Virus record (IMG/VR): IMGVR_UViG_3300030098_001795
Location: 1-36,046 of that record
Source of the DNA: a virus
DNA: 36,046 nucleotides
Reading direction: 5' to 3' (one strand)
The number at the start of each line of letters is the position of its first letter. Position 1 is the stretch's first letter. The notes under the pieces were generated by a model. That model was not told where the DNA came from. It did not search any database and saw nothing but the letters and a program-made list of their open reading frames with translations. Shown one piece after another: positions 2,530 through 35,590 of the stretch. Both the position numbers and the translations under genes were made by a program.

Positions 2530-3070
2530 TATGCAAAAGCCAACTGTGGTGCGCCAAGTAAAATGCTATTATCTGCTTTGACAATGTAAGGTAAAACATC
2601 ATAGGCATTGTTGGCAGATGATAAGTCTATACTACCGCCGCCACCCGGCTTTTCGTAATCACCATGCAACGACAGCGTTGCAGCAGAACCACTTGACGGC
2701 TGGATAAGTATTATAACACCTGTCTGTCCAATCTGGCTGCCCTCGGTAGTTGGCGCATCAAGAGTGTTAGAACCGGATGCCAATGTAATTATAAAGTTTT
2801 GGTATGTATCAAAGTCAAGCACACCGCTAGTTGCTGATAGTGCCGCTGTATAGGTGCTTGGCACTTGCGCTTTTGTAAAAGTGCTTTGTGCATTTGTTGC
2901 TACAATATTTGCGGAAGCTAAACCAGTAAGCTGTGACGCTGCTATGCTTTTATTTGTCAGTGTCTGGGTTGCCACAGTGCTAACCAGTTCACCATCGCCG
3001 CCCGGCGGCAGTGTCAGCGTATTCGTCACACTGGCAGAGTGCGGTTGTGCCTTAACAGTTTGACCATGAC
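2440..3070. repeat. Wrap-around repeat, inner copy (matches ~35500-36046)
   Basis: The last ~90 bp of this block (fibre 5' end) and the 3' part of the 455-aa gene closely match the right end of the window, with scattered substitutions and an 81-bp in-frame difference. It pairs with the 1-108 repeat to define the overlap of the two genome passes. Confidence 0.85.
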
Positions 3071-3896
3071 TGTTGCTCTCGCAATTAAACACCATAGTGC
3101 CGGGATTTGTATTACCTTTAAGAACCGTTTTACCAGTACCGTCTGGATTTAACTCAATATCAGCATTAGATGTGGTGACAATATCTTTGCCATTCATATC
3201 TAAATCACCGCCAAGTTGCGGTGTGGTATCATCAACTATATCAGCTACCCCACCACCAGCAGGGCCAGTTGCTCCTGTTGCGCCAGCAGGTATACCCAAT
3301 GCTAAAGCTAATGCACCGCTGGCAGCTGTATATGTAGCTGTCGCTGTAGGTGTTGCGCCAGTTGATAAGCCGGATGCGGATATCGTTACAGTGTCGATCT
3401 TGCCCTCAGTGACCGTCAAATCGCCGCTGCCGTCAAAACTTAGTAGCTTGTTAGCTCGATCAGTAGCCGACGTTGTAAATTCAGACGTTGCAATCACGTT
3501 GGTCTGCGAGACTTTCAACGCCCGGCCTATAGCTTCATCATGTTGCTGTGAAATCATTGTCAGCCGGTCAAGCGCATCCTCATGGCTCTCAGCTGGGAAC
3601 GGATCGTTGGCAACGTAGTCGGTGCCTTGGGTCAATGTAAGCTTGCGTAAGATCACGACAGTTTCGCCAGATGCCGGAATGTTGCCGGTAGTAAACGTCA
3701 CGTTGCCGCCACTGTCCGTGCCGGCCCCGCTTACCGTGTAATGTGTGGTCAGCGTCTTGGTTGTTTCAACGCCAGCTGATGATCGGATGATTACGGTTAG
3801 ATCCGCATCTGCGAATATCTTGAAGCCGTAGGCAAACGCGGCTGTGCTGCCGTTGCCAGAAAAGCTAGCGCGGTTTGTTGTGGTTGATACTGTCAT
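2529..3896 (-). CDS. T7 gp17-like tail fibre base protein (455 aa)
   Basis: The N-terminal ~135 residues have the layout of the T7 gp17 virion-attachment domain: a beta-rich start (FAYGFKIF, ADLTVIIR), a hyTV-like strand (THYTVSGAG), a strand ending in VVILRKLTLTQGTDY, then a helix with HEDALDRL and HDEAIGRALKVS. A short collagen-like GATGATGPAG segment follows near residue 205. The C-terminal third (LDFDTYQNFIITL, GQTGVIILIQPSSG, SILLGAPQLAFA) is a beta-rich tail module. It probably anchors the fibre to the tail tube and carries the next gene's product. It starts immediately after the 1118-aa gene. A second, truncated version of its C-terminus at 35590-36046 lacks a 27-residue segment. Confidence 0.75.
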   Translation of the reverse strand: MTVSTTTNRASFSGNGSTAAFAYGFKIFADADLTVIIRSSAGVETTKTLTTHYTVSGAGTDSGGNVTFTTGNIPASGETVVILRKLTLTQGTDYVANDPFPAESHEDALDRLTMISQQHDEAIGRALKVSQTNVIATSEFTTSATDRANKLLSFDGSGDLTVTEGKIDTVTISASGLSTGATPTATATYTAASGALALALGIPAGATGATGPAGGGVADIVDDTTPQLGGDLDMNGKDIVTTSNADIELNPDGTGKTVLKGNTNPGTMVFNCESNSHGQTVKAQPHSASVTNTLTLPPGGDGELVSTVATQTLTNKSIAASQLTGLASANIVATNAQSTFTKAQVPSTYTAALSATSGVLDFDTYQNFIITLASGSNTLDAPTTEGSQIGQTGVIILIQPSSGSAATLSLHGDYEKPGGGGSIDLSSANNAYDVLPYIVKADNSILLGAPQLAFA

Positions 3897-16754: not shown

Positions 16755-17820
16755 TTATGCTGACTCATCGCAATCGATTTGAACGACTTTTTCTTCTTCC
16801 ATCCTGGTGCTTCCAAACTGCGCGCAGTAGTAGACCTGAGTGGAGTAAGATTTGTCGGCTCTCTCATCAATGCGTGAGGTTACGTCCTTACCGACTGCCA
16901 GCTTGATGCCATCTTGAGCCCAAGCAAAGCAGGTGCGAATGTTGCCAGCCTTGGCCAAGCGAGTTGTTACATGGAACTGAAAGCCCATGAACGTATTGAT
17001 CTCACCTTGTACCAGCGCCTTTCGTACCACTACAGTTTTCACTGCCGCTATTGCGTTTGTGGTCTGGACTATACCTTGACCGTCGCCCTTGGCGTTACGG
17101 CCCTGCCCGTCTAGTCTCTACACCTTCCCATCTCTGGGCTTGGCTCGGTATTAGCATTTTACAGCCTTCACCGAATTTGAGCAGTTTTCGTCTGACCGTT
17201 TCCGATCAGATAGGCAAAGTGTTTACCGTGTTAAAATCGCTGGATGTGACTGTGGTGCTGTTCAACAGCGCCTCAATCTGGTCTGGCCCCACAGCGATAT
17301 GCCGTGGAATTGATGGGTCAACTGAGCCCAGGTCAAGAATTTTCTTGGCCTCGATCAGCTTCGCCAGTGTTAGGTCAGCACTGCCATTAGCAATCTGATT
17401 GGCCGCAAGCATCGTTGTGCTTGTGCCACCAGCCTTGCCAGTCAGTGATGTGCCTGTTGCTGCCGCAATGATGGCATCGTCCATTGCCCGGCCCATAGCC
17501 GCCGCTGCCGCACGGGCATAGGTGCTTGTTGGGTCAATAAGCATTTGGACTTTATCTGCATCATCGATAAGGTCGGCCCACTCATACGCATCCATAGTCA
17601 CCATGCGCCGTGAGTGTGGTGTATCAACCATCGGGGTATCCTGATGGCGTGATGTACGTTTTACCGCAGCCGCTGCACCAACTTGATCGAAGAAAGCCTT
17701 TTCTCCGACTACTGATTCCTCTTCAACGCCGCCCCGTAGGATCGACCCCATCTGCTGAGAAAGCAGTGTTACGTTGGCACTAAACTGCTGGGAAAACGCG
17801 GTAGTGATTTGCGTAGACAT
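16755..17820 (-). CDS. Major capsid protein, interrupted by a group I intron
   Basis: Exon 1 is 17820-17225 and exon 2 is 17022-16755. Joined they give 864 nt, 287 residues plus stop, ending CDESA. The splice falls in the Val199 codon (GT|A) and recreates SSDFNTVKALVQGEINTF, a conserved capsid segment. Without splicing, translation stops six codons into the intron (...NTLPI) after 204 residues. The N-terminus (TTAFSQQFSANVTLLSQQMG) and body match HK97-fold capsid proteins of T7-like marine podoviruses. I chose the ATG at 17820: AGGGAG lies 8 nt upstream, whereas the ATG at 17826 is only 2 nt from it. The gene follows the scaffold and a 62-aa gene. Confidence 0.9.
17023..17224 (-). ncRNA. Group I self-splicing intron (202 nt) in the capsid gene
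   Basis: Read on the minus strand. P1 is GGU^AAA-CAC-UUUGCC, with the splice-site U paired to G. P2 is CUGAUCG-GAAA-CGGUCAG. P3 is CUGCUC with GGGCAG. P4 is UUCGGU with ACCGAG. P5 is GGC with GCU, and P6 is GCC with GGU plus a GCCC/UGGG extension. P7 is GACUA with UAGUC, lying within R (GTGTAGAGACTAGA) and S (AAGGTATAGTCC) elements close to the group I consensus. P8 is GGCCGU with ACGGUC. P9 is ACCAC with GUGGU enclosing CGC-AAUA-GCG and GCAGU-GAAA-ACUGU hairpins. The last base is G, as required. P10 forms between intron CUUU and exon AAAG. No homing endonuclease is encoded. GAAA loops in P2 and the P9 region fit the usual L2-P8 and L9-P5 contacts. Confidence 0.92.
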
Positions 17821-17914
17821 ATCCATGTCTCCCTTTGTTTGCAGTTAAATGGCTTGCTACCCGGCACTATGCCGGACAAAGGTTTTTGCATTTTACGGTT
17901 GCGACCGACCGGGG

Positions 17915-24427: not shown

Positions 24428-24570
24428 CCCGTACAATCCCCGCCGTCTGCCTGACAATCGCCATTGGCTTGCAGTATCTGATGTAGCATATAAGCTGATG
24501 TTCTGCCGCCAGAAAAACTGATCTGAATGTTACCGCCTGGCAGTTGATAGGGGTTGCTCATGCTACTCAT
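24424..24570 (-). pseudogene. Truncated PAPS-reductase / PP-loop protein remnant (48 aa)
   Basis: A short frame whose N-terminus has the PP-loop signature of PAPS reductase and ATP pyrophosphatase proteins: GGNIQISFSGGRTSAYMLHQ (SGGRTS at residues 20-25), as at the start of phage phosphoadenylyl-sulfate reductase-like proteins. The family normally runs to about 200-300 residues; here it stops after 48, and I see no continuation in other frames because the 100-aa gene begins in the stop (ATGA). It overlaps the methyltransferase end by 8 bp. It is either a decayed gene or a retained ATP-binding micro-protein. Confidence 0.65.
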
Positions 24571-25672
24571 CACGCACCGCCTTGATGGTCAGCCCGATCT
24601 GCATGGCTATTTGCGGCACTATCGCGTTCCCAAGCCCCCTCAAGCGGCTAACGCGGTCTTTGACCCCTGTTGCTACTCTTGGGATGTCTTCTGGCTCTCG
24701 CTCCCATCCGTCAAATCTGTCCAGCCCCTTGGGTAGCCCATCAGCCAAGTCACAAATTCTGGATTCAGTGTTCCACCTGCGTGGGTCGCAAGGGTCACGC
24801 TGTTCCGCGCCAACTCCGCTGGACTGTGGCCATTGTCCTTGTAATCTTTCGCGGTTGGGGTCGGCCACATCTTCGTCATTCGGGCTGGCTCCAAACTCCC
24901 ACCTATCATTGCCTCGGCTTCCTCTCGCGTCACTTCCCCTGCGTAGACTTTCTGTCGCATCTGTTTGATGCTGCCCTCTGACCTTGCTTGGCTTGCTGTC
25001 GGTGTCGGCCACATCTTCACTTGGTCTGCTAAATTCGCCCCGAATACCAAGTTCGGGTTGGTCTGACTGATGCGTCTGCCCTTCTCGTCCAGCTTGCGTG
25101 GCCCCCCTGTGCCATCCGTCGTTCGAGGTGTTGCCCACCATCCGCTGTTCATTGATGGTGCCATCTGGTTCGCCTTGGCTGTTGATGTGTGCAATAATCC
25201 AGATTCGCTGTCGGCGGTGCGGAGCATTGACGGACACAGCTCCAATACAAAATGTTTGGACTGCGTAACCGGCCTTATCTTCCAGGTCAGATAGCACTTG
25301 GTCGAGCCCCAAACTGATGTGTCCAGAAACATTCTCGAAAACGCACCAAGAGGGCCGTTTTGCTTGCACAATGGCAAATATTTCCGGCCAGATGTGGCGG
25401 TCATCTTCCTCGCCTCTTTGCTTCCCGGCAACGGAGAATGGCTGGCAGGGATATCCGGCTGTGAGGATATCGCAGTTTGGAACAAGTCTTGTTGGGTCAC
25501 TAGCTAACTCCTTTACGTCATGGGCAATCGGCACGTCTGGCCAATGCTTTGCTAATACCTTGCGGCTCCACGGCTCTATGTCACAAAACATGACAGGTTT
25601 GGATAAGCCAGCCCACTCAAAGCCCAAAGCAAAGCCGCCAATGCCACTGCATAAATCAACGTGAGCCATCAT
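24563..25672 (-). CDS. DNA (cytosine-5) methyltransferase (369 aa)
   Basis: Transfers methyl groups to cytosine C5, probably to protect phage DNA from host restriction. Motif I is DLCSGIGGFALGFEWAG (residues 6-22); motif IV is GYPCQPFSVAG with catalytic Cys76; ENV lies at 113-115; motif VIII-like APHRRQRIWI at 150-159; the closing motif is GNAIVP at 348-353. The region expected to hold target recognition (about 165-320) is Gly/Asp/Arg-rich and low in hydrophobics, with VADTDSKP and VADPNRERL segments. That same DNA is open in a second frame (24673-25500). The start overlaps the zinc-protein stop (ATGA). Confidence 0.9.
   Translation of the reverse strand: MMAHVDLCSGIGGFALGFEWAGLSKPVMFCDIEPWSRKVLAKHWPDVPIAHDVKELASDPTRLVPNCDILTAGYPCQPFSVAGKQRGEEDDRHIWPEIFAIVQAKRPSWCVFENVSGHISLGLDQVLSDLEDKAGYAVQTFCIGAVSVNAPHRRQRIWIIAHINSQGEPDGTINEQRMVGNTSNDGWHRGATQAGREGQTHQSDQPELGIRGEFSRPSEDVADTDSKPSKVRGQHQTDATESLRRGSDARGSRGNDRWEFGASPNDEDVADPNRERLQGQWPQSSGVGAEQRDPCDPRRWNTESRICDLADGLPKGLDRFDGWEREPEDIPRVATGVKDRVSRLRGLGNAIVPQIAMQIGLTIKAVRDE
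24673..25500 (-). CDS. Overlapping second-frame ORF inside methyltransferase, WPTPTA protein (275 aa)
   Basis: Same strand, +1 frame relative to the methyltransferase. It starts at GTG with AAAGGAG 7 nt upstream, within methyltransferase codons. The product looks like a real protein: AFSRMFLDTSVWGSTKCYLT near residues 53-72, WPTPTA at 164-169 and again at 212-217, a degenerate WATPRT at 122-127, and a C-terminal LNPEFVTWLMGYPRGWTDL. I recall the same WPTPTA and LMGxPxGWTDL patterns in proteins from other phages, often annotated as methyltransferase pieces. Its function is unknown. Whether it is expressed separately, or the two frames reflect an old shift, cannot be decided here. Confidence 0.6.
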   Translation of the reverse strand: MTQQDLFQTAISSQPDIPASHSPLPGSKEARKMTATSGRKYLPLCKQNGPLGAFSRMFLDTSVWGSTKCYLTWKIRPVTQSKHFVLELCPSMLRTADSESGLLHTSTAKANQMAPSMNSGWWATPRTTDGTGGPRKLDEKGRRISQTNPNLVFGANLADQVKMWPTPTASQARSEGSIKQMRQKVYAGEVTREEAEAMIGGSLEPARMTKMWPTPTAKDYKDNGHSPAELARNSVTLATHAGGTLNPEFVTWLMGYPRGWTDLTDGSESQKTSQE

Positions 25673-26567: not shown

Positions 26568-27506
26568 ATGATAGACACACCTGACTTTGCAACCAAGCTG
26601 GGTATCTGGACAGTGTCCAACCAGCGCTCAAAAGATCGAGCAAAAGACTTTTTTGAAAAGATACACGTTAGACCACAGATTGAAAAAGCCAAAAAGGTCT
26701 TGCGTAACAAACAATCCACAAGCAAAGAGATCCTTGAGGCCAAGGATGTTCTTTATAGATTGCGTGATGGCCGTGGCAGCGCCAACATGGCCGGCGGTAC
26801 AGCGACACAGGTGGCGACAGACCTCAACCTGGTCATGGACAAACAAGGCAAAACCGTTCCACTGGCTGAGGCAATCCATGCCGGCGTCGAACATCTGCAA
26901 GCATATCAGCCAAACGACGACGCAGATGAGGCTCGCAAAGAAAAATATTTAGAAGAGTTGCCAATCGTCGTAGAACACGCCGTGAAGGGCTTACAAGAGG
27001 CTATGGCTAGTGACAACCGCATCTTGGGTGAGATCGAGCTGCTGAAGCCCCTGCCGGGCTTACAAGTGCCATACCATACCAAACCGGACTACAACCGGCG
27101 CGGTGATCTCAAGACAAAATGGTCACGGCCAAGTAGCCGGTCTAAATCTGGGTGGCAAGCCGGTAGTCTGCCCAGTTCGCTTACCGGTATGTTTGATATG
27201 AACAACGTGTTCCAAGCGGCTGGGTTCTGGGCGCTCAATGGCAACCTACCGCCTTTCATCGTGTATGCCAACGCGACAGACTATCGTGTGTTCACGCCAG
27301 AAAACGCGCCTGAGTTGCGGAATGATTTCTTGCAAGATGTTATCAATGAGGCGACGTTGTATCATCGCACTACAGAAAACCTGTTAAAAGCATCGGCGAC
27401 CAAGGAAGACTTGTTCAGCTTGGTGTCACCAGATTGGTCTGCGATATACTGGCAAGAGACTGAAACATATCTTGATGAAGCTAGAAAACTATGGGGGATG
27501 ATATGA
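26568..27506 (+). CDS. PD-(D/E)XK exonuclease, RecB/Cas4-like (312 aa)
   Basis: A probable DNA end-processing exonuclease. The catalytic core reads GEIEL near residues 154-158, GDLKTK at 179-184 (Asp180, Lys182), and a later QAAGFW (216-221) resembling the QxxxY motif of RecB/Cas4-type nucleases. The N-terminal ~150 residues are helical. It leads the plus operon; a probable ssDNA-annealing protein lies three genes downstream, so the pair may form a Red-like recombination module. The stop overlaps the next ATG (ATGA). Confidence 0.75.
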   Translation: MIDTPDFATKLGIWTVSNQRSKDRAKDFFEKIHVRPQIEKAKKVLRNKQSTSKEILEAKDVLYRLRDGRGSANMAGGTATQVATDLNLVMDKQGKTVPLAEAIHAGVEHLQAYQPNDDADEARKEKYLEELPIVVEHAVKGLQEAMASDNRILGEIELLKPLPGLQVPYHTKPDYNRRGDLKTKWSRPSSRSKSGWQAGSLPSSLTGMFDMNNVFQAAGFWALNGNLPPFIVYANATDYRVFTPENAPELRNDFLQDVINEATLYHRTTENLLKASATKEDLFSLVSPDWSAIYWQETETYLDEARKLWGMI

Positions 27507-27619
27507 AAATGTTTATCCGTGAAGGGTTCAACACCCTGATTTGGGTCATATTGATGGCCATCATTTATTTTATTTTGACAATGTTGTTTGTTGATCAAAC
27601 CTGGTGGAGTCCGTCATAA
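27503..27619 (+). CDS. 38-residue single-span membrane peptide
   Basis: Starts in the stop of the exonuclease gene (ATGA) and ends TAATG with the next gene. After MKMFIREGFNT comes one hydrophobic span (LIWVILMAIIYFILTMLFV) and a short tail. Translational coupling on both sides supports it as a real micro-gene. Function unknown; an early membrane-active peptide is possible. Confidence 0.6.
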   Translation: MKMFIREGFNTLIWVILMAIIYFILTMLFVDQTWWSPS

Positions 27620-27957
27620 TGGGTCAGTCAGAGTTTGATTTCAGCAAACCACCACTTGTTCACAAAAACGCCAAAGACACAGAGATCAAAGCCGCTGACG
27701 TGGTTGCCCCCAAGGTGACCGGTATGAGGCTGAGAGTGTTACAGGCTTTGGACGTTGTGGACGGCATGACAGGTAGCCAGCTGACTGATCACTTGGATGC
27801 CTGGATCAACAGCGTCAAGCCCCGGCTCACTGAATTGCAAGGCATGGGCCTGGTAGAGGATAGTGGCCAACGCCAGAAAAACCCACGCGGCAATCAAGAG
27901 GTCGTGTGGCGTATCACAAACAGAGGTTCTAAATTTTTGAGAGGTGAATATGATTGA
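27619..27957 (+). CDS. Winged-helix DNA-binding protein (112 aa)
   Basis: The C-terminal ~80 residues have a MarR-like winged-helix pattern: RVLQALDVVDGMTGSQLTDH, a recognition-helix-like AWINSVKPRLTELQGMGLV, and a wing with EDSGQRQKNPRG. The N-terminus is disordered. I take the ATG at 27619 (GGAG 9 nt upstream) over a GTG at 27604. It may regulate the operon or act in DNA replication. Confidence 0.65.
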   Translation: MGQSEFDFSKPPLVHKNAKDTEIKAADVVAPKVTGMRLRVLQALDVVDGMTGSQLTDHLDAWINSVKPRLTELQGMGLVEDSGQRQKNPRGNQEVVWRITNRGSKFLRGEYD

Positions 27958-28591
27958 CATAAAAAAAATACAAGCCGCCGTGGGTGCAATGGATCAAGTC
28001 ACGGTAAAAGGTGGCAAGCAATACACTCAAGTTGCACAGCGTGTTGAAGCGTTCCGGGTCAACATCGGTGATGAGCTTGGCATGGAATCTGAACTGATCG
28101 TTGATGATGGCAAGCGTGTCGTTATGAAAGCGATCATAAAATCAAGAGATGGTTTTGTCGTTGCCACGGGCTGGGCAGAAGAGTTGCGCGGCCAAGGCGT
28201 CAACAAAATGGCTTGCATTGAGAACACTGAGACAAGCGCATACGGGCGCGCTCTAGCAAATCTCGGCATACATGGCGGCGAGTTTGCGTCTGATAATGAA
28301 ATCGACAAGGCGAAACGCAATGAAAAGATTATCGATGAGCGCACAGCTGAAGAGTCCACCCCGCCGCCAAGCGACGACATACCGCTTGATGAGGATGATA
28401 TGTGGCAGCAATGGGTCGATGCTGAGAAGCAAAAAATCGAGGGCTTCAATGAGCTATATCAACTTATGGGGTGGGGCAAAGCGACCAAGGCAAAGCGCGA
28501 TCAGCTGACAGAGTATAACCGTGAAATGATCGCGGATCTTAAAGACGCATATCAGGAAAAACACAATCAACTTAATACAGGGGAAAGATAA
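27950..28591 (+). CDS. Putative ssDNA-annealing / recombination protein (213 aa)
   Basis: The N-terminal ~110 residues carry the pattern KQYTQVAQRVEAFR, VVMKAIIKSRDGFVVATGWA and CIENTETSAYGRALANLGI. I associate the Cxx(N)xETSAxGRALAxLG block with phage ssDNA-annealing proteins of the Rad52-like/Sak type, but the subfamily is unsure. The C-terminus is acidic then helical (PPPSDDIPLDEDDMWQQWVD). I choose ATG 27950 with AGAGG upstream; GTG 27944 is in frame. It sits downstream of an exonuclease, supporting a recombination role. Confidence 0.6.
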   Translation: MIDIKKIQAAVGAMDQVTVKGGKQYTQVAQRVEAFRVNIGDELGMESELIVDDGKRVVMKAIIKSRDGFVVATGWAEELRGQGVNKMACIENTETSAYGRALANLGIHGGEFASDNEIDKAKRNEKIIDERTAEESTPPPSDDIPLDEDDMWQQWVDAEKQKIEGFNELYQLMGWGKATKAKRDQLTEYNREMIADLKDAYQEKHNQLNTGER

Positions 28592-28950
28592 TGGCACAAT
28601 TTAGTCGTACAAAATTTAAACTGAAACAGGACGTGATTGCAGTCGATGATGCCGGCAATGCTAATGAGTACCGGGCATCAGCTTTTCTACAGTTCCGCAC
28701 TGAGTGGGATGACAACAACCGGCGTTACAAAGAGATGACAGACAACCAAAAACAGATTTGTGAAGAATTGCATCAACAGCTGTATCAAGCCGGCGTTGAG
28801 TTTGGAATCAGTATACAGTACCGCGATCCAATGGCTGGTGACGATTTAAAGTTGATGCCAAAGATTGCAACCTTTAGTCTTTTATGTAATGAGCCAAAGC
28901 AAAAACCAAAACCACAACCAGAGCCACAAGTCGATGACGATGGCTGGTGA
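28591..28950 (+). CDS. Hypothetical protein with acidic DDDGW tail (119 aa)
   Basis: Unrecognised. The N-terminal body (FSRTKFKLKQDVIAVDDAGN, EYRASAFLQFRTEWDDNNRR) is mixed alpha/beta; a Lys/Pro/Gln linker (EPKQKPKPQPEPQ) leads to an acidic tip VDDDGW. That layout, and its place after a probable annealing protein, recalls SSB-type C-terminal tails, but there is no clear OB-fold motif. Start overlaps the previous stop (TAATG). Confidence 0.5.
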   Translation: MAQFSRTKFKLKQDVIAVDDAGNANEYRASAFLQFRTEWDDNNRRYKEMTDNQKQICEELHQQLYQAGVEFGISIQYRDPMAGDDLKLMPKIATFSLLCNEPKQKPKPQPEPQVDDDGW

Positions 28951-32983: not shown

Positions 32984-33040
32984 AATTATCTCCTATCGTG
33001 CATTAGCAAATTTGAATGGGGCTTCGGCAAAGGCGAGGTA
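32933..33040. repeat. Right copy of wrap-around repeat (matches 1-108)
   Basis: Same sequence as the left end, spanning the fibre gene's end and the next gene's start. The offset is 32,932 bp, which gives the genome length for the pass carrying the 822-aa fibre allele. Confidence 0.9.
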
Positions 33041-35590
33041 GATGTATGTTTCACCGTTTGTATTAAAAGTGCCACCAGTGTTTGTAATCTTAACCCCATT
33101 AGAAACAAAATCACCAAAGGTAAAAGGCACTTCAGCAGTGTTATCATTCGGATTTAAAAATAAATTAGAGACATTTTGAGGATTTCTTGCAGCATCTAAT
33201 ATGTGCCAGTTTCGTGAAGCATCTATATCTTTGAGTAAAATAAAAGCTGGTCTAAACCCTGTGTAAATAAAAGGGCCATCTGCATCATTATTGCCGACAT
33301 ATGACCCAACCTTGCTATAGCCCTCAACACTATGAAAACAATACGCTATGTAAGGACTTGTATTTGAATTAACATTGGTTGCACTGCCAACGGTGAAAAC
33401 ATTTGCATCTGGACTGGCTGTAAAAACAACATTGCCCAGACCCACAACAGAGGGTTCCTCAAGACGTAAAATATTCGAACTAGTAAATCCTAGACTAGGT
33501 TCTCCAACCATCCAGCTATCTCCACCATCTAATCGTTTAATAATTAAAAACTCTACCGCAGAGTTGAGACCATGTGGAATTTTTATAGGATTTGCAGTAA
33601 CGCCAGCATATTTTACAATCGAAAATCCTGCTTCTGTATTTGCTGATAAACGAGTAACAGGGATGTCTGGAGAACCACTAAAAGCACCGCTTTTATTTAC
33701 ACCATCAATTTTAACAGATCCTGCTGTTGGTTCTGCACCAGCAGCATTAGTATTATCTGTTGTTGGTGCGCCACCAGCTTTCCAGTTCCAACCTACATAT
33801 GTTCGACTATTATAATATAATTCGCCACTATCAATACTACTCTCTACAAATTGATAACCGCTGCTAGTAACGCTGAATGTCGTACCTGATACTCCGTTTG
33901 CGCCTTCCGCGGAACCATCACTAGACACAAGAAACTTATCAGTTACTGACACGTTACCACGCACAACATCAGTTAAAAAGTGACGCTCTGAATTATTTCT
34001 ATTTTTTATCCAACTCCAGTCAGGAGTGAAAGATATGCTTCCGTGGGTATGAGTGCCATTACTTGATGCTGCTGTGTATAGAATAGTGTCAAAATAATCG
34101 TCAGCTTGGCTGCTTTGTCCGGGGCCGATTGTTATGTCTGGTAAGTTAGATGTGCAAAGAGCCAAAAAACCAGTTGGGACTGCATAGAAAAAATCACCCA
34201 CACCATTTGCATCACTATTACCACCAGCGGTTTTGTTTCCTGCAAAAGTGCTATCCTGACCATAGTTTATTATGCCACCACCAGCACCGCTGCCGCCATA
34301 ACACGACAAGCCAATGCAATATTCTTTGTTAGCGGTAATTGTTTTAGATGGATTAGTCCCTGATGCTGGGTCTCCATCAGCCGCACCTACTCTGTAATAA
34401 GTGTTGTTCCTACCTAAGAAAACTTTACCTGTGTCACAATCAAAAGCAATTTGGTAAATGTCACCAGTTGAGCCTGTTATGCTTGATGCCAATACGCCTG
34501 TGCCGCTTTGTTGCCTAATGCTTAAATTACCAGCAGAGTTATTCAAAATTGCACAAGCATCAGCAGAAGCATTATACAACATTGTTGTTAAATGATTTGC
34601 ATTTCTATCGTCTGGTGTTGGTATTTCAGATATGCCAAACTCTAAATCATCTGCACGAGGAAGCACAGCGTAGCACTCAAAATACCACTTGCCTGATGTT
34701 GGTATGTTCATTGTGCTATACGCTTGATGCGATGAAGATGTATTAGTCGTAGTAGATTTCAAGTTACCTTCAGCAAGTGTAATGTTACTACTGACTTGCA
34801 ACGGATTTAACGTAGGAAAATTATTAGTCGGACTGTCAGGTACGATATCAGTTGCGGCTAGATTGTATGCGTCAAAATCATTACTGCCAGCTTGGTCTGC
34901 AAAAACATCAGGGTCTGAGACATTATCAGTAAAACTAGATGTAGAAAAATCAAGATGGAATCCGTTTGTGCCATATGAGCCGGTGTATTGTTTTGGAATC
35001 CAGACACCATCTTTCGTTTCACCGAAAGTGTCTGGGCCATAACTTGTGCCGTCAACAAAATTTACTTCAGCCATATAACCATGAAAATTTCTTGAAGAGC
35101 CAGTGCTATAACCACCCATCTGGTGATCGTTGCCAGATTGATTTATTGTTGAATCAATATCTTGGTTGACATGTTGCTGTCCACTAAAAGATGTTATCTG
35201 TGTTCCATTGACATATATACGACTTCTATCGGCAGCCGTTGCTTGTGTCGTGTCTACTCGCCAGACAAAATGATACCAAGCCGCACAATCACGGAAGACT
35301 TGACTTGACGTTTTTTGTTTAGCTGATAGTTGAACATAAAGCGTATCATCACTGTTAAATCTAAAAGTGCTATAAGAACTTGATCTACCGTCTGTGAATA
35401 AAACCTGTTGACTACCTAAACTTGCTCTTTTGACCCAAGCACTCCAAGTCCATGTTTTCATATTACTTGAACTGGTTATATCGCGTTTTAAATACGCATT
35501 ATCGCTGTCATTAAAACGCAAAGACTGGTTAATCGTGTGTGGGTAAAACCCAGTGCTAGGGTTTGTGAACCATTTATCTGGACTAAACAT
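32993..35590 (-). CDS. Tail fibre / receptor-binding protein, allele B (865 aa)
   Basis: Second version of the fibre. The first ~27 residues and last ~20 nearly equal those of the 822-aa allele. The LamG-like domain is still recognisable but divergent (TWTWSAWVKRASLGSQQVLF, AWYHFVWRVDTTQATAADRS, RIYVNGTQIT). The SPRY-like middle (GKWYFECYAVLP, IAFDCDTGKVFLGRNNTYYR) and the C-terminal Trp/Gly segments (FTPDWSWIKNRNNSERHF, GFRPAFILLKDID) match only in part. An extra PTAGSVKIDGVNKSGAF segment is present. Both alleles are intact, consistent with selection for different host receptors. Confidence 0.75.
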   Translation of the reverse strand: MFSPDKWFTNPSTGFYPHTINQSLRFNDSDNAYLKRDITSSSNMKTWTWSAWVKRASLGSQQVLFTDGRSSSYSTFRFNSDDTLYVQLSAKQKTSSQVFRDCAAWYHFVWRVDTTQATAADRSRIYVNGTQITSFSGQQHVNQDIDSTINQSGNDHQMGGYSTGSSRNFHGYMAEVNFVDGTSYGPDTFGETKDGVWIPKQYTGSYGTNGFHLDFSTSSFTDNVSDPDVFADQAGSNDFDAYNLAATDIVPDSPTNNFPTLNPLQVSSNITLAEGNLKSTTTNTSSSHQAYSTMNIPTSGKWYFECYAVLPRADDLEFGISEIPTPDDRNANHLTTMLYNASADACAILNNSAGNLSIRQQSGTGVLASSITGSTGDIYQIAFDCDTGKVFLGRNNTYYRVGAADGDPASGTNPSKTITANKEYCIGLSCYGGSGAGGGIINYGQDSTFAGNKTAGGNSDANGVGDFFYAVPTGFLALCTSNLPDITIGPGQSSQADDYFDTILYTAASSNGTHTHGSISFTPDWSWIKNRNNSERHFLTDVVRGNVSVTDKFLVSSDGSAEGANGVSGTTFSVTSSGYQFVESSIDSGELYYNSRTYVGWNWKAGGAPTTDNTNAAGAEPTAGSVKIDGVNKSGAFSGSPDIPVTRLSANTEAGFSIVKYAGVTANPIKIPHGLNSAVEFLIIKRLDGGDSWMVGEPSLGFTSSNILRLEEPSVVGLGNVVFTASPDANVFTVGSATNVNSNTSPYIAYCFHSVEGYSKVGSYVGNNDADGPFIYTGFRPAFILLKDIDASRNWHILDAARNPQNVSNLFLNPNDNTAEVPFTFGDFVSNGVKITNTGGTFNTNGETYIYLAFAEAPFKFANAR

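Follow-up and report, generated by a model that had tools for sequence, protein, structure and literature searches.

A predicted self-splicing group I intron with a tRNA-type core interrupts the major capsid gene of an uncultivated virus

The major capsid protein gene of a marine phage, an uncultivated virus known from the IMG/VR record IMGVR_UViG_3300030098_001795, is interrupted by a group I intron. The window, by which we mean the whole stretch of 36,046 nucleotides (nt) analyzed here (positions 1 to 36,046), is a 36-kb record with this single intron. The gene (PF19821) is located on the minus strand and is split by 202 nt at 17023–17224. Its 5' exon (17225–17826, 602 nt) carries codons 1–200 and the GT of the valine codon V201, and its 3' exon (16755–17022) is 268 nt long. 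Without splicing, the minus strand offers two open frames, one of 206 amino acids (17826–17206) and one of 95 amino acids (17042–16755). They match consecutive parts of the same family, residues 1–204 and then 201–293 of PF19821, and their register in phrog_3437 is also consecutive (1–205 and then 202–294). When 17224–17023 is removed, the exons join as a single frame of 289 codons and a stop, reading ...SSDFNTVKALVQGEINTF.... By its capsid protein, the phage is HTVC010P-like, with 64% identity to HTVC203P and 67% to HTVC010P, and both of these capsid genes are unbroken.

The Rfam group I model RF00028 matches 17234–17052 on the minus strand with 57.8 bits (E 2.6e-12; cut-off 50), which is the only Rfam match above the cut-off in the window. 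The model match stops at 17052, short of the 3' splice site, and the boundary at 17023 was set by the protein frame and by intron-free alleles. A first-pass annotation, made from the letters alone, had placed a group I intron here and predicted that its exact removal restores the capsid frame. The coordinates, strand and splice sites all hold, and the covariance model that it proposed as a check scores above its cut-off. The insert is a genuine group I intron, which is an element of a known kind, and judging by its sequence it is very probably functional. Our reading, to which we assign a probability of about 0.94, is that a group I intron from the lineage of bacterial tRNA introns, self-splicing and free of an endonuclease, is inserted in codon V201 of the major capsid gene and spreads among related phages.

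The group I core is complete, including the U-G pair of P1 at the splice site, P10 and the final G that had been claimed for it, and most helices covary. For this analysis, 18 distinct V201 introns were aligned, and pairs were counted on a structure drawn from the window sequence. In total, 99.2% of the 1074 structure cells were paired. Two-sided changes occurred at 32 of 64 pairs, P7 included (shuffled mean 18.3); the covariation score of 0.370 was reached in none of 500 shuffles, and the number of further pair types was equalled in one of 500. Sliding the alignment by 1–3 columns reduced the pairing from 99.2% to 25–45%, a control that favours the structure since the structure derives from one of the aligned sequences. 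The alleles share kinship, so the covariation counts do not equal independent events.

P1 (17213–17227) is formed by the exon GGU and the intron AAA with UUUGCC; the U-G pair at the 5' splice site is present in 18 of 18 sequences, and both exon G-C pairs are invariant. The P2 hairpin (17189–17212) has a GAAA loop and two-sided changes in six of its nine counted pairs, and the in-frame TGA that closes the unspliced 206-codon frame (17206–17208) lies within it. P3 (17103–17184; 17184–17179 with 17108–17103) encloses P4, P5 and P6 and shows two-sided changes in four of six pairs. In P7 (17067–17116; 17116–17112 with 17071–17067), which is the guanosine-binding helix of the known group I plan, one of five pairs varies (A-U in 10 sequences, U-A in 8) and the other four are invariant. 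P8 (17078–17102) shows two-sided changes in seven of ten pairs, six of the ten being present in only 5–6 of the 18 sequences. The P9 domain (17026–17063) has a GAAA loop with invariant letters, and the terminal G of the 3' splice site (17023) is invariant in all 18 sequences. The P10 bases of the 3' exon (17019–17022) pair with 17219–17216; 98.6% of 70 cells are paired, with two-sided changes at three of the four pairs, each in a single sequence.

The base ahead of the GT of the valine codon is the silent position of a threonine or serine codon. All 23 intron alleles examined (the window and 22 loci, some of them identical; L171 has no 5' exon) have G there. Of 125 distinct alleles with no intron at the V201 site, some of which carry introns elsewhere in the capsid gene, 18 have G (one further allele lacks the motif). 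The G in the intron alleles is attributed to the P1 pairing, which demands it.

Intron-less alleles, which the first-pass annotation had recommended looking for among related capsid genes, were found. In a first capsid scan, for which the best 80 of the loci listed were fetched with the 5' exon as the query, 73 loci gave a single uninterrupted tblastn piece across the site and seven were broken there. The intron-free relatives read DFNTVKAL or near variants across the site. Six of the broken loci (L006, L007, L011, L052, L059 and L060) carry an insert of 192–204 nt after the GT of the valine codon, ending in G. The seventh (L082, 1227–1438) has a group I intron of another type a few bases downstream, which scores 73.2 bits with RF00028 and 43 bits with R1, our model of the V201 introns.

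The distribution of the intron is patchy and partly non-vertical. In a capsid protein tree with 101 rows (25 carrying the intron, 75 lacking it and L082 uncounted), intron presence requires at least 10 changes, five of them forced by starred branches, compared with 22.3 in shuffles. Trees of 18 alleles differ between exon and intron. In the exon tree, L173 and L193 group with L087, L142, L192, L098 and L179 (99/99), whereas in the intron tree they group with L088, L134, L168 and L146 (95/91). The exon clade is rejected by the intron data (approximately unbiased test, p-AU 0.038), and two intron groupings are rejected by the exon data (p-AU 0.0045 and 0.0013). The patchy capsid tree and the tree conflict point to horizontal spread to intron-free alleles. 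Higher intron than exon identity in most pairs was not used as a sign of transfer, since a conserved ribozyme core gives the same result without transfer.

As the first-pass annotation had it, the intron brings no endonuclease with it. At 202 nt it is too short for such a gene, it contains stops in the capsid frame, and no endonuclease open reading frame (ORF) lies within it. The families PF13392, PF01844, PF01541 and PF02945 have no match anywhere in the window (LAGLIDADG families were not searched). The same four families were sought in 24 hand-chosen records, many of them fragments, of which 12 carry the intron and 12 do not; RF00028 matches all 12 carriers and none of the others. HNH_3 (PF13392) is above the cut-off in three of the 24, namely the carriers G005 and G007, where it is over 5 kb away from the intron, and a single intron-free record. 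HNH (PF01844) and GIY-YIG (PF01541) are above it in none of these often fragmentary records. Endonuclease VII (PF02945) is likewise found in 0 of 24, with one sub-threshold match in an intron-free record, and its control was detected in 0 of 14 genomes. An endonuclease near the capsid intron was thus rejected for the four families in the 24 records (LAGLIDADG not searched).

The kinship of the intron was followed by searching its core pattern in viral contigs (at least 120 stretches) and GTDB genomes (at least 119 stretches, 120 cores). The pattern shared with transfer RNA (tRNA) introns is GAGCCAAGC...GAAGGTGTAGAGACT[A/T]GACGG. Among the matches listed, ARAGORN placed 104 of 120 bacterial genome cores inside intron-bearing tRNA genes, and 16 of 120 were not placed in tRNAs. 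Among the viral matches listed (L086–L205), 85 of 120 cores were also inside intron-bearing tRNA genes, and some of these contigs may be prophage or host DNA. With all sequence outside the core region shuffled, ARAGORN called 0 of 240. A first control, in which sequence was shuffled outside 130 nt, was useless; it kept the tRNA halves, and calls persisted for 78 of the 120 viral cores and for 39 of the 120 from genomes.

The remaining 35 viral cores among the matches listed lie outside tRNAs and were sorted by reading their flanking frames. They comprise 24 at the V201 capsid site (six of these are contigs of the first capsid scan, and several are identical to each other), four elsewhere in T7-like capsid genes and seven that were read as other or unclear (L086, L089, L094, L097, L144, L169 and L202). 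In a tree of 215 intron cores, 19 V201 rows form one group among tRNA introns, and seven T7-like capsid introns need two changes. The nearest cores off the capsid site among the matches listed are the viral tRNA introns L096 (82% over 154 nt) and L178 (85% over 130 nt). The next are bacterial cores with about 82% identity over 127–130 nt, from Rhodobacterales (L259, the best bacterial core listed, with 82% over 130 nt), Rhizobium (L282) and Alphaproteobacteria (L256). In annotated phage records, the window intron has 19 matches, none covering more than 80% of its length. The usual location of tRNA-type introns in a tRNA gene does not apply to the window intron, which lies in a capsid gene. A part of a 2014 review (PMC3984707) describes the phage introns observed by then as all lying in protein genes, naming polymerases, reductases and terminases; introns within tRNA genes of phages were not known to it. 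By sequence, the V201 introns appear to belong with the tRNA-type core lineage.

Further introns are present in the capsid genes of relatives. Three of the 12 carrier records (G007, G009 and G011) have three RF00028 matches each in the capsid gene. In a second capsid scan, the best 80 loci were searched with R1; the counts do not represent prevalence, since intron-bearing queries were used to pick similar loci. Judging from contig names or lengths, L326, L330 and L358 are apparently the same contigs as L193, L173 and L143, and there are further overlaps between the scans. R1 gave 49 matches. Of these, 48 lie within or at the capsid gene, and they come from 26 of the 80 loci (that of L361 is weak and cut by the contig end). 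The other match (L347, 2669–2886) is a group I intron past the capsid gene end, probably in the next gene. Eight loci (L326, L328, L330, L332, L333, L336, L378 and L381) have three capsid introns each. Four group I introns were observed in the single capsid gene of L335 (331–2138), and all four exceed the RF00028 cut-off (53.7, 77.4, 61.1 and 60.8 bits). RF00028 matches 11 of 12 tested loci, all but the intron-free L327. The V201 introns of L330 (44.9 bits) and L326 (42.7 bits) are under its cut-off.

Insertion sites were located by junction fitting to L327 codons 45/46, 53, 55, 63, 66, 68, 86/87, 108/109, 203 (the V201 of the window) and 278, of which 45/46, 63, 86/87 and 108/109 may be off by a few bases. 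The V201 boundary rests on the comparison with intron-free alleles, as the junction script picked a neighbouring cut for V201 introns. Two further sites were placed by piece boundaries, namely that of L082 (window codon 204; its sequence was also read) and that of the final intron in L168 (near window codon 260). The spliced L326 capsid gene is 873 nt long, which is the same length as that of the intron-free L327, with 783 identical positions. The R1 scores are split: 15 V201 introns reach at least 200 bits, and the remaining 34 matches score at most 54. The V201 site of L392 holds a low-scoring intron (2904–3110; R1 50 bits, RF00028 89.6 bits). This intron is of another type at the same site, and therefore at least two intron types occur in the capsid gene. 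From these sequences, the capsid gene of the relatives appears as an intron hot spot, with introns of two or more types at roughly twelve sites and as many as four in one gene.

A related intron was also noticed in a cultured phage. HTVC120P (MH598807), which infects Pelagibacter, has an unannotated capsid intron (L002, 2457–2653) that scores 172 bits with R1 and has no Rfam match above the cut-off or at E 0.001. GenBank annotates two capsid ORFs in HTVC120P. When its exons are joined (L002, 2456 to 2654), a 325-residue capsid protein results that is collinear with the intact 326-residue proteins of HTVC134P (304 matching positions, stop included) and EXVC010P (311). The window and HTVC120P thus share related capsid-gene introns, but the capsid of HTVC120P is T7-like and its intron is at another site and below the RF00028 reporting limit. 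A match to the HTVC120P intron also lies in a tRNA-Arg of Microcoleus phage My-WqHQDG (OR578706). In KT997847, an uncultured record from the Ionian Sea (3010 m), the T7-like capsid region has two group I introns that are not annotated, at L004 2446–2626 and 3155–3335. Their RF00028 matches are 78.0 and 76.9 bits, and the record is annotated with two capsid ORFs. The model boundaries join uncleanly; at the second junction about six extra residues appear, and the first needs a 3-nt shift to fit.

The effect of the intron on the capsid frame was compared over 19 distinct alleles. An in-frame stop lies 2–7 codons beyond the valine codon in all 19. In 15 of them, no in-frame ATG, GTG or TTG precedes the 3' half between the last intron stop and the splice site (starts in the 3' exon were not examined); ATG is present there in none, and GTG or TTG is present in the window, L120, L162 and L199. 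The early in-frame stop and the mostly missing start ahead of the 3' half indicate that the full-length capsid protein very probably needs splicing, as the first-pass annotation had it. According to the known group I mechanism, the exon GGU would pair with the internal guide in the RNA to form P1, and a guanosine bound in P7 would attack behind the U of the U-G pair. The released 5' exon would then attack behind the terminal G while P10 holds the 3' exon in line, and the ligated mRNA would encode the 289-residue capsid protein. Unspliced RNA would end at the sixth codon past V201 and give a truncated product of 206 residues. The spread of the intron at a fixed site would probably proceed via recombination of co-infecting phages, with a trans-acting endonuclease or none, and not through an endonuclease of its own.

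The separate existence of two capsid frames might be explained in other ways. If the insert were an assembly or sequencing artefact, as might be suspected for a record of an uncultivated virus, the V201 site would hardly be occupied in 25 of 100 scored capsid genes, nor would a related intron be found in the isolate HTVC120P; this explanation is close to refuted. It is very improbable that the intron no longer splices and that the capsid assembles from two separately translated pieces. The window does have in-frame GTG codons within the intron ahead of its 3' half, which forms the 95-amino-acid ORF. However, the core pairs, the splice-site pairs and P10 are kept by compensating changes, and the split-capsid reading was rejected on the 15 of 19 alleles with no in-frame start in the intron ahead of the 3' half, ATG being found in none (3'-exon starts were not examined).

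Other readings concern why the intron is kept and how it moves. An endonuclease acting in trans, encoded elsewhere in the phage or in a co-infecting one, may mobilize it. The patchy, non-vertical distribution at a single site and the HNH_3 domains in two of 12 intron-carrying records agree with this, but HNH_3 also occurs in one of 12 intron-free records, the window and nine other carriers have no PF13392 match (many records being fragments), and PF01844 and PF01541 are found in 0 of 24 (LAGLIDADG not searched). We regard such a donor as possible, though on the unlikely side. The intron might also be retained as a regulator whose slow or conditional splicing would limit or time the supply of capsid protein. 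Late infection calls for much capsid protein, the in-frame stop follows soon after the 5' splice site in all 19 distinct alleles, and several relatives have three or four introns in this gene. Nevertheless, 73 of 80 close relatives are uninterrupted at the site, and the intron is therefore dispensable; the in-frame stop is also poorly controlled, with an early stop in the +1 frame of 18 of 19 alleles. A regulatory role, which the first-pass annotation had suggested for late gene expression, is unlikely. A broader proposal is that the capsid gene is a standing trap for endonuclease-free introns of at least two types at about a dozen sites, that the V201 family is a tRNA-type intron moved into a protein gene, and that the phages retain this load since splicing, with its need for free guanosine, would adjust capsid production to the state of the infected cell. 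Taken as a whole, this proposal is speculative and unlikely.

Several points weigh against the reading of a self-splicing tRNA-type intron that spreads among phages. Its splicing in the window is a prediction from sequence rather than from RNA or biochemistry, and the exact spliced junction of the window allele has 0 matches in viral contigs, neither as a spliced nor as an intron-free copy. One P2 pair of the RNAalifold structure, which was omitted from the pair count, is A-C in the window (two of six sequences). The +1 frame also stops within nine codons in 18 of 19 alleles (the +2 frame in one of 19), so the in-frame stop is a weak, suggestive sign of selection. The V201 introns as one group have an SH-aLRT (Shimodaira–Hasegawa-like approximate likelihood ratio test) value of 74, which is weak support. 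The sample of the capsid tree is biased, since the intron pattern was used to fetch 18 of its 25 alleles with the intron, and two rows are imperfect: L087 was read through its intron and L171 is 30% filled. The significantly conflicting groups were named post hoc, with the trees in view. A second conflict, involving the window, L162, L120 and L199, was not significant, with p-AU values of 0.21 for the reverse grouping in the intron data and 0.073 in the exon data, although column resampling put the window intron nearer to L199 than L158 in 98% of resamples and the window exon in none.

The tRNA-intron kinship, the further capsid introns of relatives and the cultured relative go beyond the first-pass annotation. 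Unusual features of the intron are its tRNA-intron lineage, its capsid target and the lack of its own endonuclease, and it is also unusual that introns cluster in the capsid gene of relatives. The same intron core links bacterial tRNA genes, tRNA genes of viral contigs and phage capsid genes. Given that one capsid gene can hold as many as four ribozymes, the question arises how introns without their own endonuclease spread, and the tolerance of introns by an essential late gene is a further question. HTVC120P is cultured and has the same recorded host strain, HTCC7211, as HTVC134P, whose capsid gene is uninterrupted; for this reason, the questions of splicing and spread are testable.

Other features of the window were noticed in passing. 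A C5 DNA methylase (24563–25672) is about 100 residues longer than its phrog_363 match (1–367 on 53–316), and its C-terminal half (24563–25141) has no Pfam match. Two large proteins with DUF7483 and a lectin-like domain are encoded at opposite ends of the record (61–2529 and 32993–35590) and are possibly tail-fibre genes. At 26568–28950 there are plus-strand ORFs, one resembling a phage transcription regulator, and the surrounding genes are mostly on the minus strand.

A literature search over titles and abstract starts, with most subscription papers and bioRxiv-only preprints beyond its reach, returned no recognisable report of group I introns in marine podovirus capsid genes. Introns are known in the capsid genes of mimivirus. 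T4-like, SPO1-like and Twort-like phages have group I introns in td, nrdB and DNA polymerase. The window intron resembles these in residing in a phage protein gene, and differs in its target, a capsid gene, and in having no endonuclease. With bacterial tRNA introns it shares the core sequence, and it is of similar size according to the ARAGORN intron lengths among those listed; it differs in its position in a protein (capsid) gene and in its own exon GGU pairing and P10. Bacterial tRNA introns belong to subgroup IC3, with the Azoarcus tRNA-Ile intron as an example; the V201 capsid introns are putative members of this subgroup, and the GNRA loops in their P2 and P9 resemble those of IC3. Parts of the report on the gut Jug phages (PMC12363816) describe short group I introns with a mean length of about 206 nt that lie in essential genes, terL among them, and RNA reads that support the splicing of 37 of 76 predicted introns. 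In this they are similar to the window, which also has a short group I intron in an essential phage gene. As far as those parts of PMC12363816 go, the Jug phages are huge and have an average of 18.5 introns per genome, whereas the window is a 36-kb record with one intron, and its relatives have their introns clustered in the capsid gene.
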